A DNA stretch of 57,107 nucleotides from Bacteroidia bacterium. GTDB lineage: Bacteria > Bacteroidota > Bacteroidia > J057 > JAIXKT01. The stretch lies in contig JAIXKT010000032.1 of NCBI GenBank assembly GCA_026932145.1, positions 1 through 57,107 of the forward strand, given 5' to 3'. The notes under the pieces were generated by a model. It did no database searches. It saw only the letters and a program-made list of their open reading frames with translations, and had not been told where the DNA came from. This document shows, piece after piece, positions 30,420 to 38,421 of the stretch (position 1 is the stretch's first letter; every line of letters starts with the position of its first letter). The translations under genes and the position numbers were made by a program.

Positions 30420-31157
30420 TTACAAAGTATGTGCTGCAATATCTTTTTCTGAGCTGATATTTTCAACTGCTTGTGGGTTAAGTAAAACGATTCTTTTTTT
30501 TACTACGTCAATCAAATTTTCTTGGCGAAAGGAAGACAGCGTTCTGATAACATTGGCAATATTCATATTTGATAAACCGGCTAAATCAGAACTGGTTAAG
30601 GTACAGTTAATAGTTTCGTTATCAATCAGTGTTCCAAAAAAGTCTTTAATATACAAAATGGTTTCGGCAAGCCTTGCTCTCATATATTTTTGGGTCATAT
30701 TAACAAACCTCGAATCAGCTTCATCTAATTCATTTGTAAGCGTTTGGATAATTTTTAATGCCAATTTTGAATTTCCCTTCAAAACCCTCAAAAAATCTTG
30801 GGTATCTATGAAGCACACTGAGGATTCTTCTAAGGCAACAGCGGAATGGTTGTAGCGGGTCATAGAAACCACTGAACGAATATCAATAAAATCAACAGGT
30901 CTTTTGAGGCGCATAATTTGCTGGGTGTTATTTTTGGTGGTACGCACCAATTTTACCTTTCCGGCATTTAGGCAGAGTAGCCCCAACGGGCGAATTCCTT
31001 CTTTGTAAATAGCTTCTCCCTTTTTATAGTTCACCGTTGTTCGGTGGCTTTCCAATAAAGAAAGTTCATCGGCAGAAAGACCATCAAATAATGAGTTTTT
31101 TTTCTTCTCACAAGTTAGGCAAGTATTTGGTAATGAGTTACAATGAGAATCTTTCAT
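30420..31157 (-). CDS. Crp/Fnr-family transcriptional regulator
   Basis: The protein has 245 residues. The N-terminus has three close cysteines (C6, C13, C16 in HCNSLPNTCLTC), an arrangement like that of Fnr-type oxygen sensors, and further Cys at 62 and 115. The cyclic-nucleotide-binding-like barrel (YKKGEAIYKEGIRPLGLLCLNAGKVKLV) lies at about 25-135. The dimer helix follows at 140-165 and a winged HTH ends the protein (LTSSDLAGLSNMNIANVIRTLSSFRQENLI). The recognition helix lacks the RE pair that E. coli Crp uses (I and A instead) but keeps the final Arg. It lies divergent to the cytochrome oxidase operon and shares a double palindrome with it, so it likely controls respiration and itself. 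Which ligand it senses is not known. Confidence 0.88.
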   Translation of the reverse strand: MKDSHCNSLPNTCLTCEKKKNSLFDGLSADELSLLESHRTTVNYKKGEAIYKEGIRPLGLLCLNAGKVKLVRTTKNNTQQIMRLKRPVDFIDIRSVVSMTRYNHSAVALEESSVCFIDTQDFLRVLKGNSKLALKIIQTLTNELDEADSRFVNMTQKYMRARLAETILYIKDFFGTLIDNETINCTLTSSDLAGLSNMNIANVIRTLSSFRQENLIDVVKKRIVLLNPQAVENISSEKDIAAHTL

Positions 31158-31216
31158 GCTTAATAAAATTTTGAATACAAAATAACTACAATATTTTTAT
31201 GATTTACACAATATTG

Positions 31217-31260
31217 TTATGTGATTTATATCACAAAAATTTGTGATATAAATCACATAA
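31217..31260. promoter_or_regulatory. Double Crp-type operator within one long palindrome
   Basis: TGTGATTTATATCACA (31220-31235) and TGTGATATAAATCACA (31242-31257) are both perfect TGTGA-N6-TCACA sites. They are reverse complements of each other and 22 bp apart (two helical turns), which makes a 44-bp palindrome with 21-bp arms. It lies between a Crp/Fnr regulator gene (start 31157) and coxB (start 31353), with coxB about 100 bases downstream. Confidence 0.8.
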
Positions 31261-31352
31261 TGAAGTATCTGTTTTTGTTGTAAACTTGCAATTCAAATAT
31301 GTTATACAGCATATTTTTTATTGTTTTATATCTTGAAAGTAATCTTTAAATA

Positions 31353-32060
31353 ATGATGAAGTATTTAATATCTATTTTTCCAAAAGGCATTAGCACGTAT
31401 AGTGAAGAGATGGATAACCTCTTTTGGTTCATAACTATCTTAGTGTCAATAGCATTTGTTATCAGTTTATATATACTGCTGCGTCCGCTGGTTCTTAATC
31501 ACTATAAAAAGGTGTCTAAGGCGGCGTATTTTACCGGAGAAGATAAGAAGCACTTTCGCTGGATTGTGATTGCAATGGCATTGTTGGCAGCAAGTGATTT
31601 TGCTATTTTGCTTGTAGAGCACCCTACTTGGGCAAAAATAGAGCAGGAAATCCCAAATCCGGATTTTCATGTAGCTGTTATTGGCCGGCAGTGGAACTGG
31701 ATTTTTCAGTATCCGGGTGAAGACGGTAAACTCTATACTGCTGATGATGTAGTTGTTGATGAGCAAAATAGTGAACTTCATGTGCCGGTAAATAAAAATG
31801 TAGTAGTAGATCTAAAAGCAAAAGATGTAGTACATAGTTTTTTTATACCAGAGCTTAGATTAAAGCAAGATAATGTGCCGGGAAGAACCATAAAACGCTG
31901 GTTTAACGCTACCGTAGAAGGAAAATATGACTTAGCTTGCGCAGAAATCTGCGGCGTATTGCATACTAATATGCGGAACTTTCTGGTCGTAGAATCCCAA
32001 GAAAAAAACGATTTATACCTAAAAAATCTTTACGAAAAAAAAGTAACTAATAAACAATAA
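31353..32060 (+). CDS. coxB: Cytochrome c oxidase subunit II
   Basis: This 235-residue subunit carries the CuA centre that receives electrons from cytochrome c. Two N-terminal membrane helices (about 22-45 and 68-87) precede a periplasmic cupredoxin domain with IGRQWNWIFQYPG. The CuA ligands are H in VVHSFFIP and C, E, C, H, M in CAEICGVLHTNM. It is somewhat shorter than typical subunit II and has no fused cytochrome c domain. It is the first gene of an operon, 6 bases before coxA. It lies downstream of the Crp-type double palindrome. A good TAnnTTTG box is not obvious; TATCTTGA near 31329 is a weak candidate. Start at either of two adjacent ATGs. Confidence 0.93.
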   Translation: MMKYLISIFPKGISTYSEEMDNLFWFITILVSIAFVISLYILLRPLVLNHYKKVSKAAYFTGEDKKHFRWIVIAMALLAASDFAILLVEHPTWAKIEQEIPNPDFHVAVIGRQWNWIFQYPGEDGKLYTADDVVVDEQNSELHVPVNKNVVVDLKAKDVVHSFFIPELRLKQDNVPGRTIKRWFNATVEGKYDLACAEICGVLHTNMRNFLVVESQEKNDLYLKNLYEKKVTNKQ

Positions 32061-32066
32061 ATTTTA

Positions 32067-33776
32067 ATGAATATGGAACACGCGCTTCACACGCACGAAC
32101 ATCCCCAGAGTTTTTGGTCAAAATATATTTTTTCGACTGACCATAAAACTATCGGGTTGCAGTATATTATCATGGGGTTGATAATGGCATCTGTAGGTGG
32201 CTTCTTGGCATACGTATTTCGGATGAACTTAGCCTTCCCGGGAGAGTATATTCCGTTTTTTGGAAACCTTAATCCGCAAGAGTACAACACCTTAGTTACC
32301 AACCATGGTATGATTATGGTGCTTTGGGTAGCAATGCCCATATTGCTTTCCGGGTTAGGTAACTTATTAATCCCCATTATGATAGGAGCTGACGATATGG
32401 CTTTCCCTACGTTAAATATGCTCTCTTTTTGGGTTTTCTTTATTAGTTCTATTGTAATATTATCTTCCTTTTTTGTACCTTCAGGGGGGTTTGCCGGAGG
32501 CTGGACATTATATCCGCCGCTTTCTGCTGGTGCTTATCACAATACGAGGCCGGAGTTTTGGTCAGCATTCTTTTCCGGAGCAAGTTTAATGATTATCGCA
32601 GTTGCACTTGAAATTATAGCAATGTTGATGGGCGGGATTAACTTTTTAGTAACTGCTATCAACAAACGCGCACCGGGATTATCTGCCTTTAAATTACCCA
32701 TTATCGTATGGTTCCTCTGCATTGCAAGCCTTGATTTTATGTTTTCTGTTGCTCCGTTAGTAGCGGGAGCCATTATGTTACTCTTTGATAATATTTTAGG
32801 AACTGGTTTTTATGACCCCGCCCGCGGTGGAGACCCTATCTTATTTCAGCACTTATTTTGGTTTTTTGGGCATCCTGAGGTTTATGTGATCCTAATGCCG
32901 GCATTAGGAGTAGTGGCAGAAATCATTACTGTATTTTCTCGTAAAACCCTATTTGCCTATAAGTTTATCGTAAATGCTACGGTGTTGGCAGCGATATTAT
33001 CTGTTGTTGTGTGGGCACACCACCAATTTGTTGCCGGTATAGACCCACGTATGGCTACTTTTTTTAGCATTGGCACTATCATTATCTCTATTCCGTTTGC
33101 GGGGATATTTCTTTCTTATATGGCAACACTATGGGGAGGCTCCATCAGGTTTACAACGCCAATGCTTTGGGCACTCGGCTTCATCGGCCTATTTTTGATT
33201 GGCGGTCTAACCGGCTTATTCTTAGGCTCTAACACCTTTGACATCTATGCGCATGACACCTACTTTATCATTGCTCACTTCCATTATACTTTGTTCCCAA
33301 TTGTGTTTTTTGGCTTCTTTGCCTCTTTCTACTATTGGTTTCCCAAGTTTCTGGGCAAAAACCTGAATGAAACCTTAGGCAAACTGCATTTCGCTTTAAC
33401 ATTTATTTTCTTTAATGGAACATTTTTCTTGTTATTTTTCAACGGATTAGCCGGACAGCACCGTAGGATTTACAATTACAGTTTATTCTCAAATGTGATG
33501 CAAGAACCTTACAGAACATTTGAAAAAATCGCAACTATTTCTGCTGTTTGCTTAATATTAAGCCAGTTTATTTTCTTAATTAACTTAATCATCACCTTAC
33601 GCAAGAAAGAAAAAGCCGTAGATAATCCTTGGAATGCAGCTACTTTAGAATGGCAAACCTCATCACCTCCGCCTCATGGAAACTTCCCAGAGCCTATTTC
33701 TGTAAATTATGGCCCTTATGAATACAGTAATCCTCAGTTTACAACGGATTTCGTTCCACAAAATCAAAAAATATAA
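32067..33776 (+). CDS. coxA: Cytochrome c oxidase subunit I
   Basis: This 569-residue catalytic subunit of an A-type heme-copper oxidase reduces oxygen and pumps protons. The low-spin heme His is in the first helix group (NTLVTNHGMIMVLWV). The CuB His and cross-linked Tyr lie in FWFFGHPEVYVILMP, the CuB His pair in VVWAHHQFVAGID, and heme a3/a ligands in HDTYFIIAHFHYTLFP. The HPEVY tyrosine means a K-channel as in A-type oxidases. The protein has about 12 membrane helices and a long hydrophilic tail ending FVPQNQKI. Translation is probably linked to coxB upstream (6 bases). The ATG at 32067 (MNMEHALHTHEHPQSFW) fits. Confidence 0.95.
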   Translation: MNMEHALHTHEHPQSFWSKYIFSTDHKTIGLQYIIMGLIMASVGGFLAYVFRMNLAFPGEYIPFFGNLNPQEYNTLVTNHGMIMVLWVAMPILLSGLGNLLIPIMIGADDMAFPTLNMLSFWVFFISSIVILSSFFVPSGGFAGGWTLYPPLSAGAYHNTRPEFWSAFFSGASLMIIAVALEIIAMLMGGINFLVTAINKRAPGLSAFKLPIIVWFLCIASLDFMFSVAPLVAGAIMLLFDNILGTGFYDPARGGDPILFQHLFWFFGHPEVYVILMPALGVVAEIITVFSRKTLFAYKFIVNATVLAAILSVVVWAHHQFVAGIDPRMATFFSIGTIIISIPFAGIFLSYMATLWGGSIRFTTPMLWALGFIGLFLIGGLTGLFLGSNTFDIYAHDTYFIIAHFHYTLFPIVFFGFFASFYYWFPKFLGKNLNETLGKLHFALTFIFFNGTFFLLFFNGLAGQHRRIYNYSLFSNVMQEPYRTFEKIATISAVCLILSQFIFLINLIITLRKKEKAVDNPWNAATLEWQTSSPPPHGNFPEPISVNYGPYEYSNPQFTTDFVPQNQKI

Positions 33777-33798: not shown

Positions 33799-34407
33799 AT
33801 GAGTCAGAATCAAACAATGTATGTTTCAGAGCGGTCTGTTCCTCAGGGGCGGCTTGCACTCTGGGTACTTATTGCCGGCGAATTGGCTATCTTTGGGGGT
33901 CTGATAGCTGTTTACCTCATGAGCAGGCTTCGCTATCCCGAAGAATGGTCTGCGCAGGCAGCCCACACCTCTACCTTTTTTGGTGCGCTAAATACCATCG
34001 TGTTGCTATTCAGCAGCTATGCCATCGTCCGTGCACACACAGCCGCCGTACATAAGCAACTAAACAAAATAACCCTCTGGATGAGCGTAACTATCGGCTG
34101 CGGATTCCTCTTCCTAATCAATAAATCAATAGAATACACAAATGAAATCCACCACGGATTTACGATGAGTAGCCCTAAGCTACAGGATGCCGGCAATGCT
34201 GTGGGCTCTGTATTCTGGTCATATTATTATACCATGACAGGGCTGCACGGGCTGCACGTTATTATCGGAATGATATCCATCTTTATCGTAATGATGGGTG
34301 CCAGAAAAGGAAAAAACCTACACCGAGTAGAACTCGTTGGGCTTTATTGGCACATGGTTGACCTAATCTGGATTTTCTTATTCCCACTACTTTATATCGC
34401 AAAATAA
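33799..34407 (+). CDS. coxC: Cytochrome c oxidase subunit III, first copy
   Basis: The protein has 202 residues and five membrane helices, the short form of subunit III found in many bacteria. Features are SVPQGRLALWVLIAGELAIFGGL, HTSTFFGALNTIVLLFSS, a loop with SPKLQDAGNAVGSVFWSYYYTMTGLHGLHVIIGM, and the final WHMVDLIWIFLFPLLYI. It stabilises subunit I and helps proton entry. It lies 22 bases after coxA in the same operon. A second, clearly paralogous subunit III gene lies two genes downstream. Confidence 0.9.
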   Translation: MSQNQTMYVSERSVPQGRLALWVLIAGELAIFGGLIAVYLMSRLRYPEEWSAQAAHTSTFFGALNTIVLLFSSYAIVRAHTAAVHKQLNKITLWMSVTIGCGFLFLINKSIEYTNEIHHGFTMSSPKLQDAGNAVGSVFWSYYYTMTGLHGLHVIIGMISIFIVMMGARKGKNLHRVELVGLYWHMVDLIWIFLFPLLYIAK

Positions 34408-34446: not shown

Positions 34447-34785
34447 ATGGAGTCAAATAAAGAAGAAGGGGTCGTTATCCCCGATATGGAGAATGATTAT
34501 CATGGGCATCCAAATTATGAAAAGGTACTTATTCAGTTATTCGTTCTTTTTGCAGTGAGTTTAGCCGTAGGCTATTTTTCCTCGATGCTTTCTATTATTA
34601 TCATTTTTGGGACAGCTTTTTGGAAGATTGCTATGGTGATGCGTAACTTTATGCACCTAAAATTTGAGCCGTGGGTAATTGGTGTAGCCGTTGCTATGGT
34701 GATATTCACACTATTAACATTCTTTTTTGGGGTAATGCCAGACGTTACGTACATTATTCGGGATGTTGTTCCAAAATATAACTAA
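34447..34785 (+). CDS. Cytochrome c oxidase subunit IV-like protein
   Basis: This 112-residue membrane protein has three predicted helices (about 28-45, 47-66, 75-95) and a hydrophilic N-terminus (MESNKEEGVVIPDMENDYHGHPNYEK). FWKIAMVMRNFMHLKFEP followed by a helix is typical of the bacterial subunit IV family (CoxD/CyoD-like). It sits between two subunit III genes and 9 bases ahead of the second, so it belongs to the complex. It likely aids assembly and stability of the CuB site. Confidence 0.85.
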   Translation: MESNKEEGVVIPDMENDYHGHPNYEKVLIQLFVLFAVSLAVGYFSSMLSIIIIFGTAFWKIAMVMRNFMHLKFEPWVIGVAVAMVIFTLLTFFFGVMPDVTYIIRDVVPKYN

Positions 34786-34793
34786 TTAGTATT

Positions 34794-35366
34794 ATGGATA
34801 TAGCTATTCAAGGTGCATCTGGGAAAAAAATCCCGAACGCCTTATTAGGAATGATTTTATTTCTAACGGTAGAAGTAATGCTATTTGCCGGCTTTATCAG
34901 TGCATACACTGTCAATCGTGCAACAGCAGCCGTTTGGCCACCATATAGCCAGCCTCGCTTACCCATAGAAATAACTTTTGTGAATACTTTAGTACTATTA
35001 GCAAGTGGCATAACGGCCTTTTTGTTTGCACGGCAGTATAAACGTTCGGCTAAAATGACCCTCTTGTATGTAACTATCTTATTGGGAATAATATTTTTAT
35101 CTATTCAAGGAAGTGAATGGGCAAAGTTAATCAGCTACGGATTAACCACTTCTTCCAGCCTATACGGAGCATTCTTTTATACCATTATCGGTGCTCATGC
35201 AGTCCATGCTGTTGCAGGGCTTGTGATTTTGCTATACTTATTAAATAAATTACAACGAAGTTCAGACCTACAAGACAAGCAAGAAACAATAGTAGTTTGC
35301 AACCTATATTGGTATTTTGTGGTGGGAATTTGGCCGGTATTGTATGTATTAGTTTATCTATTATAA
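34794..35366 (+). CDS. Cytochrome c oxidase subunit III, second copy
   Basis: This 190-residue paralogue of the first subunit III has about five membrane helices. It shows NALLGMILFLTVEVMLFAGFISAYTV, LPIEITFVNTLVLLASGITAFL, SSSLYGAFFYTIIGAHAVHAVAGL and the terminal NLYWYFVVGIWPVLYVLVYLL. Tandem subunit III genes around a subunit IV gene occur in Bacteroidota; together they may replace a seven-helix subunit III. It starts 9 bases after subunit IV and ends 13 bases before ctaB. Confidence 0.88.
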   Translation: MDIAIQGASGKKIPNALLGMILFLTVEVMLFAGFISAYTVNRATAAVWPPYSQPRLPIEITFVNTLVLLASGITAFLFARQYKRSAKMTLLYVTILLGIIFLSIQGSEWAKLISYGLTTSSSLYGAFFYTIIGAHAVHAVAGLVILLYLLNKLQRSSDLQDKQETIVVCNLYWYFVVGIWPVLYVLVYLL

Positions 35367-35379
35367 AACCAAATTTGCT

Positions 35380-36264
35380 ATGTTAAGTTTATCTGCGATT
35401 GAAAGTTTTACTAAGCAAAAGCTAATTGACTATGGCCAGTTAGTAAAACTAAGGTTATCTTTTTTTGTGGTTTTTTCTGCCGCGATGTCTTATCTATGGG
35501 CAACAAATCGTCAGGTAGATACCCTTACAATCTGGTTATTATCTGCCGGTGGCTTCCTCATTACTGCTTGCGCAAATATTTTAAATCAAGTTATTGAGCG
35601 TATTTCAGATAAATTTATGAAGCGTACGGCAAAGCGACCCCTTCCGGCTAATAGAATGAATCCATTAGAAGCATTGACGTTAGCCTTACTTACCGGAGTT
35701 ATCGGACTATTACTTTTATTTAGTATAAATTTCATTTCAGGGATACTCGGTTTTTGTGCCATCGTTACTTATGCCGGGATTTATACCCCCATGAAAAGAT
35801 TATCCTCCTTAGCGATTGTTCCGGGAGCCATTGCCGGCTCTATCCCAGTTATTATCGGCTGGACTGCTGGAACCGGTGCTATTCAATTAGAAGCTATCTT
35901 ATTGTTTGGGATTCAGTTTGTTTGGCAATTTCCACACACTTGGACTATTGCTTGGCTACAAAATGACGAATACAACAAAGCCGGCCTCAAAATGCTTCCG
36001 ATGCAACGCAAAAATAAACTTTCTGCAAGCCTGATTTTACTATCTACATTTTTAATAATACCCTCTGTATTAGTTCTTTATATGTATCAAACTGCCGGCT
36101 TTCACGTAACTTGGATATTAGCCTTAGCAGCCTTAGGGATGATGTTTTTATCCTATAAGTTTTATATCAAAAGGACAGACAAAGCTGCCGTTACGTTGAT
36201 GCTTTCTTGTTTTGCGTTCCTACCGTTTGTACTGATTACATTAGTAATTGAAAAATTTCTATGA
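35380..36264 (+). CDS. ctaB: Protoheme IX farnesyltransferase
   Basis: This 294-residue UbiA-family inner-membrane enzyme joins farnesyl to heme b to make heme O for the oxidase. The first Asp-rich motif is altered but present (NQVIERISDKFMKRTAKRPLPANRM, near residue 64), where N and D bind prenyl diphosphate with Mg. Other blocks are GIYTPMKRLSSLAIVPGAIAGSIPVIIGW and FGIQFVWQFPHTWTIAWLQNDEYNKAGLKML. Eight or nine helices are visible. The gene is in the cox operon, 13 bases after the second subunit III, and overlaps the next small gene by 4 bases. Heme A synthase (ctaA) is not in the window. Confidence 0.92.
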   Translation: MLSLSAIESFTKQKLIDYGQLVKLRLSFFVVFSAAMSYLWATNRQVDTLTIWLLSAGGFLITACANILNQVIERISDKFMKRTAKRPLPANRMNPLEALTLALLTGVIGLLLLFSINFISGILGFCAIVTYAGIYTPMKRLSSLAIVPGAIAGSIPVIIGWTAGTGAIQLEAILLFGIQFVWQFPHTWTIAWLQNDEYNKAGLKMLPMQRKNKLSASLILLSTFLIIPSVLVLYMYQTAGFHVTWILALAALGMMFLSYKFYIKRTDKAAVTLMLSCFAFLPFVLITLVIEKFL

Positions 36265-37821: not shown

Positions 37822-38421
37822 ATGAAAGCAACGGACTTCGATTTTTCCAAAGATTTAAAGCTTTCCATAGAAACGGGTATTGCTTCTTTTAGGAGTACAC
37901 GTTTAGCAATGTTTGATGTAGAGGCTATTGGCTTACTTCGCAAGCTATTAATAGACGAACTTGGTATGGAAAGAGCCCGGCAATTGTTCCTTCGATTTGG
38001 CTACCAATGCGGCTATGCCGACTTTATCCAGATGAAAATAAACTATACCTTTGAAACCGAAATGGATTTATTGGCATCAGGACCTGTTATACACACTTGG
38101 GAAGGGATTGTAAGAGCAACCCCAACAGAAATTCGTTTTAATAGAGATACAGGGGAGTTTTATTTTACCGGAGTATGGGCAAACTCCTATGAGGCAGAAC
38201 AACACATTGCTTTTTGTGGGCACTCTAAAGAAGTATCTTGTTGGAGTTTAATGGGATACGCCTCTGGGTGGTGCTCGGCTTTTTTCGGAAGCAAATTAGT
38301 TGCGATTGAGCCAGTTTGCGCTTGCAAAGGCGATGCTAACTGTGGTTGGGAAATAAAACCAGAAGGCGAATGGGGCGATATTGCTAAACCCTATATTGAG
38401 GCATTTAAAATATTTAGCTAA
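37822..38421 (+). CDS. Stand-alone XylR N-terminal/V4R sensor domain protein
   Basis: This 199-residue protein is made only of the sensor half of XylR/DmpR-type regulators. Residues 20-100 resemble the XylR_N fold (STRLAMFDVEAIGLLRKLLIDELGMERARQLFLRFGYQCGYADF) and 100-180 the V4R domain. The zinc ligands known in DmpR (Cys155, Glu178, Cys181, Cys189, as I recall) have counterparts at the same spacing: C140, E163, C166 and C174. The AAA+ ATPase and HTH that normally follow are absent, and the gene ends cleanly at 38421. So it may bind an aromatic or other small ligand and signal by protein contact. A 63-residue partner gene follows 21 bases later. The domain call is good; the function is unknown. 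Confidence 0.82.
   Translation: MKATDFDFSKDLKLSIETGIASFRSTRLAMFDVEAIGLLRKLLIDELGMERARQLFLRFGYQCGYADFIQMKINYTFETEMDLLASGPVIHTWEGIVRATPTEIRFNRDTGEFYFTGVWANSYEAEQHIAFCGHSKEVSCWSLMGYASGWCSAFFGSKLVAIEPVCACKGDANCGWEIKPEGEWGDIAKPYIEAFKIFS

Follow-up and report, generated by a model that had tools for sequence, protein, structure and literature searches.

A putative tandem Crp/Fnr-type operator, probably oxygen-responsive, between a regulator gene and a cytochrome c oxidase operon in a Bacteroidia genome

Results

The window, the whole 57,107-nucleotide stretch of Bacteroidia DNA analysed here, carries a Crp/Fnr regulator gene (30420-31157, minus strand, 245 aa) and, divergent from it on the plus strand, a cytochrome c oxidase operon, with a 44-bp palindrome between the two at 31217-31260. 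This divergent arrangement of regulator and coxBAC about the palindrome is as the sequence-only reading of the locus described it. The operon comprises coxB (subunit II, 31353-32060), coxA (subunit I, 32067-33776), a first subunit III gene (33799-34407), a subunit IV gene (34447-34785), a second subunit III gene (34794-35366) and ctaB for heme O synthase (35380-36264). The two subunit III genes are different, and both are kept in the relatives G145, G035 and G087; in the G035 operon, coxB and coxA are separated by a cytochrome c-like gene. The regulator has cysteines C13, C16, C62 and C115 and a recognition helix with N199-I200-A201 and R205.

Within the palindrome, site 1 (TGTGATTTATATCACA, 31220-31235) and the cox-proximal site 2 (TGTGATATAAATCACA, 31242-31257, centred 103 bp before the coxB start codon) are both perfect TGTGAN6TCACA sequences, are reverse complements of each other and are spaced 22 bp centre to centre, precisely as first claimed. 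Self-complementarity extends over 42 of the 44 positions, the flaw being a central AAAATT, and a weak third site of Crp/Fnr type (TATGATTTACACAATA, 31198-31213) lies one further step of exactly 22 bp from site 1 towards the regulator gene. Pattern matching across the 3.48 Mb genome found four perfect TGTGAN6TCACA sequences against about four expected from base composition, and 53 with one mismatch against 60 for the reversed control, whereas a pair of perfect sites is expected only ~5e-6 times per genome at one given spacing and ~3e-4 times over 60 spacings. By these expected counts, chance can be dismissed as the origin of the pair but not of any single site.

The closest homologues of the regulator, in G145 (56% identity), G035 (50%) and G087 (43%), are all encoded divergently from the same cox gene set, and in G078 the regulator gene sits amid cox genes and is transcribed divergently from a cytochrome c-like gene. 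TGTGA sites are absent from the corresponding gaps of these four genomes. What each gap has instead is a strong TATGATN4RTCATW site, 81-108 bp ahead of the downstream gene, together with a weaker second site displaced by exactly 22 bp towards the regulator (site sequences CATGATCTAGAGCATA, TATGTTCTTGGTCATA, CATGAGATCAAACATA and TATGATATGAAACATA). The layout of the predicted operator is kept at orthologous loci, and its spelling has diverged, to TATGATN4RTCATA in the relatives. A search of such loci for the motif had been put forward as a check on the original proposal, and it recovered the layout and the 22-bp spacing but not the 44-bp palindrome as spelled here. Among 395 genomes of the class the double TGTGAT pattern has three other matches, with two or three mismatches and none of them seen beside an oxidase operon, and this rarity indicates that the spelling is lineage-specific while the layout is not. 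An AT-rich inverted repeat between genes might also be a hairpin or repeat element, terminator-like or mobile, that has no regulatory role. We find this barely credible, as the palindrome lies between two divergent gene starts, the 22-bp two-site layout persists in four genomes in which the sequence has diverged, and the same motif stands before other respiratory genes.

The weaker second site is lopsided in all four relatives, with one TATGA-type half and one half ending in CATA, the latter preceded by A or G and often reading AACATA, which could mean that it is held below the optimum or serves a different protein. Only short AT-rich words were common to the relatives when the regulator-cox gap was searched for an extra conserved motif. 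A parallel to the window is seen in G008, of the same order, where three sites at 22-bp steps lie between a related Crp/Fnr regulator gene and a ccoN-like gene (cbb3 oxidase, named by eye).

The 22-bp spacing extends well beyond these loci. Of 53 TATGAYN4RTCATW sites in four relatives, 51 fall outside coding sequence. A partner scoring at least 10 of 12 stands 22 bp away in 13 of 102 flanks, the rate at the other offsets between 16 and 80 being 0.12%. As strict-site pairs enter this count twice, once from each end, the number of separate pairs is about 11, and some of these come from genomes of a single genus. Other genomes repeat the pattern: 59 of 61 sites fall outside coding sequence, the 22-bp partner occurs in 5 of 122 flanks where the background rate is 0.13% (P = 8e-7), and 44 bp shows a slight rise as well. 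The predicted tandem design of two sites 22 bp apart recurs before respiration genes in related bacteria. The original observation was correct yet understated, for the palindrome is the best copy of a putative tandem operator that recurs across the class.

Promoter position follows a rule of its own. The Bacteroidota -7 element, TAnnTTTG, allowed at most one mismatch, was sought on both sides of 112 sites in relatives: in 53 of the 224 directions it begins exactly 29 bp away from the centre of the site, against a mean of 2.75. These cases come from 13 genomes, and the distances peak a second time at 51 bp, that is, 29 + 22. With the usual placement of the box the site would be at about -41.5, a class II position, and its partner at about -63.5. 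In the window's own genome an exact box lies at 29 bp before a FAS1 protein gene and a one-mismatch box at 29 bp before a modE-like gene, a nitrate-reductase-like operon has a one-mismatch box at 51 bp, and the nirK-like promoter has no box at 29 bp.

The cox promoter itself has no TAnnTTTG box at 29 bp; the nearest, which is also the best candidate found, is TAAACTTG (31282-31289, plus strand, one mismatch), 31 bp from the centre of site 2. On the other side, the regulator gene has a candidate -7 box with one mismatch, TTATTTTG (31178-31185, minus strand), whose distance to the centre of site 1 is 42 bp, and no site was found in the canonical position before it. Since the cox promoter is without the 29-bp spacing, the operator may act on cox with either sign. 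One possibility is repression of cox at low oxygen, with dimers on the tandem sites, and perhaps on the weak third, excluding RNA polymerase or locking out an activator. The non-canonical spacing would suit such a role, and an aa3-like oxidase is expected to be off in anoxia. We nonetheless consider repression doubtful, as the geometry is class II regulon-wide, the TTTG boxes of the G035 and G087 cox promoters end where the 29-bp rule predicts (one mismatch each), and the candidate cox promoter lies downstream of the sites, not under them.

Other sites in the same genome are few (7 against 3 in the control), and the names given here to their targets come from reading the sequences, not from family searches. 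A site on contig C44 precedes a molybdopterin oxidoreductase, iron-sulphur and cytochrome c operon of nitrate-reductase-like type, followed by MoaA-, MoeA- and MobA-like genes. Double sites precede a gene for a NirK-like multicopper oxidase (C7:327928) and the FAS1 protein gene (C7:393051), and further sites precede the ModE-like gene (C7:148035) and one gene on contig C41. In the relatives the targets include cytochromes c and, by eye, 2-oxoacid:ferredoxin oxidoreductase-like and ribonucleotide reductase-like genes. This set resembles anaerobic and nitrogen-oxide respiration, and the motif probably marks an FNR-type anaerobic or micro-oxic regulon with a tandem operator.

An HTH_Crp_2 search of the genome returned two Crp/Fnr proteins, the adjacent regulator and one encoded on contig C48 (hereafter the C48 protein). 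By alignment the adjacent regulator has Ile200, Ala201 and Arg205 where E. coli Crp has Arg180, Glu181 and Arg185, so the early remark that Ile-Ala replaces Arg-Glu in its recognition helix was borne out. The C48 protein, with a VRETATR helix, has the full Arg180, Glu181, Arg185 set; it is without a C62 equivalent, and its gene's own promoter has no site. Among regulators of relatives that have a site in their own promoter, those with Thr-Glu have TATGA in 12 of 12 cases, and for Arg-Glu the spelling is TGTGA in 4 of 4 (G103, G065, G011, G078), an association of residue 180 with the half-site at P = 5e-4, or 2e-3 if two of one family count once, in which the Arg180 side consists of four regulators, two of them of one family. 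The code agrees with a published correlation of R180 with G and E181 with A of the half-site (PMC1274295). G019 is an exception, having a RETATR protein and no TGTGA sites. The Arg180 regulators of G103, G065 and G011 all adjoin a homogentisate dioxygenase-like gene, with TGTGA-type sites near.

With Arg in the C48 helix and Ile in that of the neighbour, the residue-180 code makes the C48 protein the likelier reader of TGTGA, and we favour it as probably the principal reader, while both proteins may bind. Part of the sequence-only reading therefore stands, namely a Crp-type two-dimer operator tied to the oxidase, and part is disfavoured by the code, namely the adjacent regulator as its reader; the fallback offered at the time, that another Crp-like protein may bind, is now preferred. 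It could still be that the adjacent regulator binds both sites and controls coxBAC and itself, reading TGTGA through contacts other than Arg-Glu. Its divergence from the oxidase, with a tandem operator between both genes, is kept in four genomes including this one, and R205 is invariant. We judge this unlikely all the same: Ile200 and Ala201 misfit the code at residues 180 and 181, the G087 orthologue has the same Ile-Ala beside a TATGA operator, and the regulator's own candidate -7 box, as described above, has no canonically placed site. In addition, for 3 of 3 related TTSNASR-type regulators, which have no Glu181, the gene's own promoter contains TTGTTN4AACA[AC] instead, and the adjacent protein may thus not read TGTGA at all. 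That palindrome sits just before a TAnnTTTG-like box, as if autorepressing, and a similar one occurs in the G087 regulator-cox gap, in the cox promoter.

As a candidate sensor the adjacent regulator has a conserved set of cysteines. All 14 homologues retain C13, C16 and C115, which correspond in the alignment to C20, C23 and C122 of FNR. C62 occurs in most of the homologues with an intact CxxC and is missing from the long forms that have lost this motif. C6 is found in this protein alone and was rejected as a cluster ligand. The N-terminal C6/C13/C16 cluster once taken as a hint of oxygen or redox sensing accordingly survives in C13 and C16, which together with C115 and mostly C62 form a redox-type set, and not in C6. 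An FNR-like iron-sulphur cluster in the adjacent regulator is plausible. The protein exceeds the cut-offs for PF00027 and PF13545 and so belongs to the Crp/Fnr superfamily. Its AlphaFold2 model, with a mean pLDDT of 85.8, resembles both 2GAU and holo-FNR in fold (Z 27.9 and 24.2, respectively). It is not FNR proper, scoring 45 bits on NCBIfam PRK11161 against a curated cut-off of 228. Of the N-terminal C-x2-C-x5-C of FNR it has C13-x2-C16 only, with no C29 equivalent, while C115 is the equivalent of C122; Ala201, Ile204 and Arg205 stand in place of the FNR helix residues Glu209, Ser212 and Arg213, and the operator is TGTGATN4ATCACA here and TATGAYN4RTCATA in relatives, not the FNR box TTGATN4ATCAA.

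Discussion

The palindrome appears to be a genuine double landing site for a Crp/Fnr-type switch that probably responds to oxygen. The sites, their spacing, the synteny, the promoter spacing in relatives and the correlation of residue 180 with the half-site are read from the DNA by computation, and from them we infer binding, the reader, its signal, activation and the sign of control at cox. We put the odds at roughly even (about 0.5) for a tandem FNR-type operator that is read principally by the C48 protein under low-oxygen or nitrogen-oxide control, with the neighbouring regulator gene as a target. Two homodimers would sit side by side on one face of the DNA. In typical promoters of the regulon the proximal site, 29 bp before TAnnTTTG and hence at about -41.5, would support class II activation, with the second site at about -63.5. 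The half-site here would have shifted from TATGAT to TGTGAT, and the likeliest principal reader would be the RET-helix C48 protein, whose Arg180 equivalent fits the G. Its targets (cox, the nirK-like gene, the nitrate-reductase-like operon, the modE-like gene and the FAS1 gene) suggest control by low oxygen or nitrogen-oxide respiration, an iron-sulphur cluster probably serving as the sensor. The regulator gene next to the operator would be one more target under the same control, and its product may bind too.

A wider and more tentative proposal, which we rate as less likely than not, is a class-wide FNR-like regulon in which dimers bound in twos or threes, repeated strictly every 22 bp (-41.5, -63.5 and beyond), act as a cooperative class II plus class I switch. 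Its four-cysteine set would differ from that of FNR in having C62 in place of C29, and in this lineage the whole regulon would have moved from TATGAT to TGTGAT with a Thr-to-Arg change in a regulator encoded elsewhere in the genome. Regulator and operators would then seem to have switched specificity together, a natural case of such a change. From the motif, the two spacing rules (22 bp between tandem sites, 29 bp to the promoter box) and the residue-180 code one could predict, in testable form, the oxygen and denitrification regulons of many environmental genomes. No direct description of an FNR motif in Bacteroidota, or of FNR sites in tandem at 22 bp, emerged from our searches of open-licence papers; a meta-regulon study of Crp/Fnr proteins assigned homologues from Flavobacteriales and Saprospiraceae to MalR (PMC8510549).

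With the [4Fe-4S] oxygen sensor FNR (PDB 5E44, 9QLL) the system described here shares the fold (Z about 24), the CxxC and C122 equivalents, targets of anaerobic-respiration type and the class II site position; unlike FNR it has no C29 equivalent, C62 being the candidate fourth ligand, its half-site is TGTGAT or TATGAT as opposed to TTGAT, and tandem 22-bp pairs recur. The operator TGTGAN6TCACA and the RETxxR recognition helix of the C48 protein are those of E. coli CRP, and the site being the E. coli Crp consensus could suggest that a cAMP-dependent Crp reads it for catabolite control. This is very improbable, as E72 and R82 of the E. coli cAMP pocket are, by alignment, kept in neither Crp/Fnr protein of the genome, the targets are respiratory and 22-bp pairs are common to the TATGA sites of relatives; the cysteines are a further difference from CRP. 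HcpR1 of Desulfovibrio has a wTGTGAn6TCACAw consensus with R180, and DNR and NnrR control nitrite and nitric oxide reductases, whereas all three are without the FNR-type cysteine motif (PMC1274295); here CxxC and C115 are conserved and cox is a target. The nearest solved structure, 2GAU, a Crp/Fnr protein of Porphyromonas gingivalis with 32% identity and a shared NM-type recognition helix (SNMTVSNAIRT), differs in being without C62 and C115 equivalents in the alignment, and our search found no known operator for it. Elsewhere in the window, positions 37822-38421 encode a 199-aa protein with an XylR_N/V4R sensor part and neither an ATPase nor a DNA-binding part.
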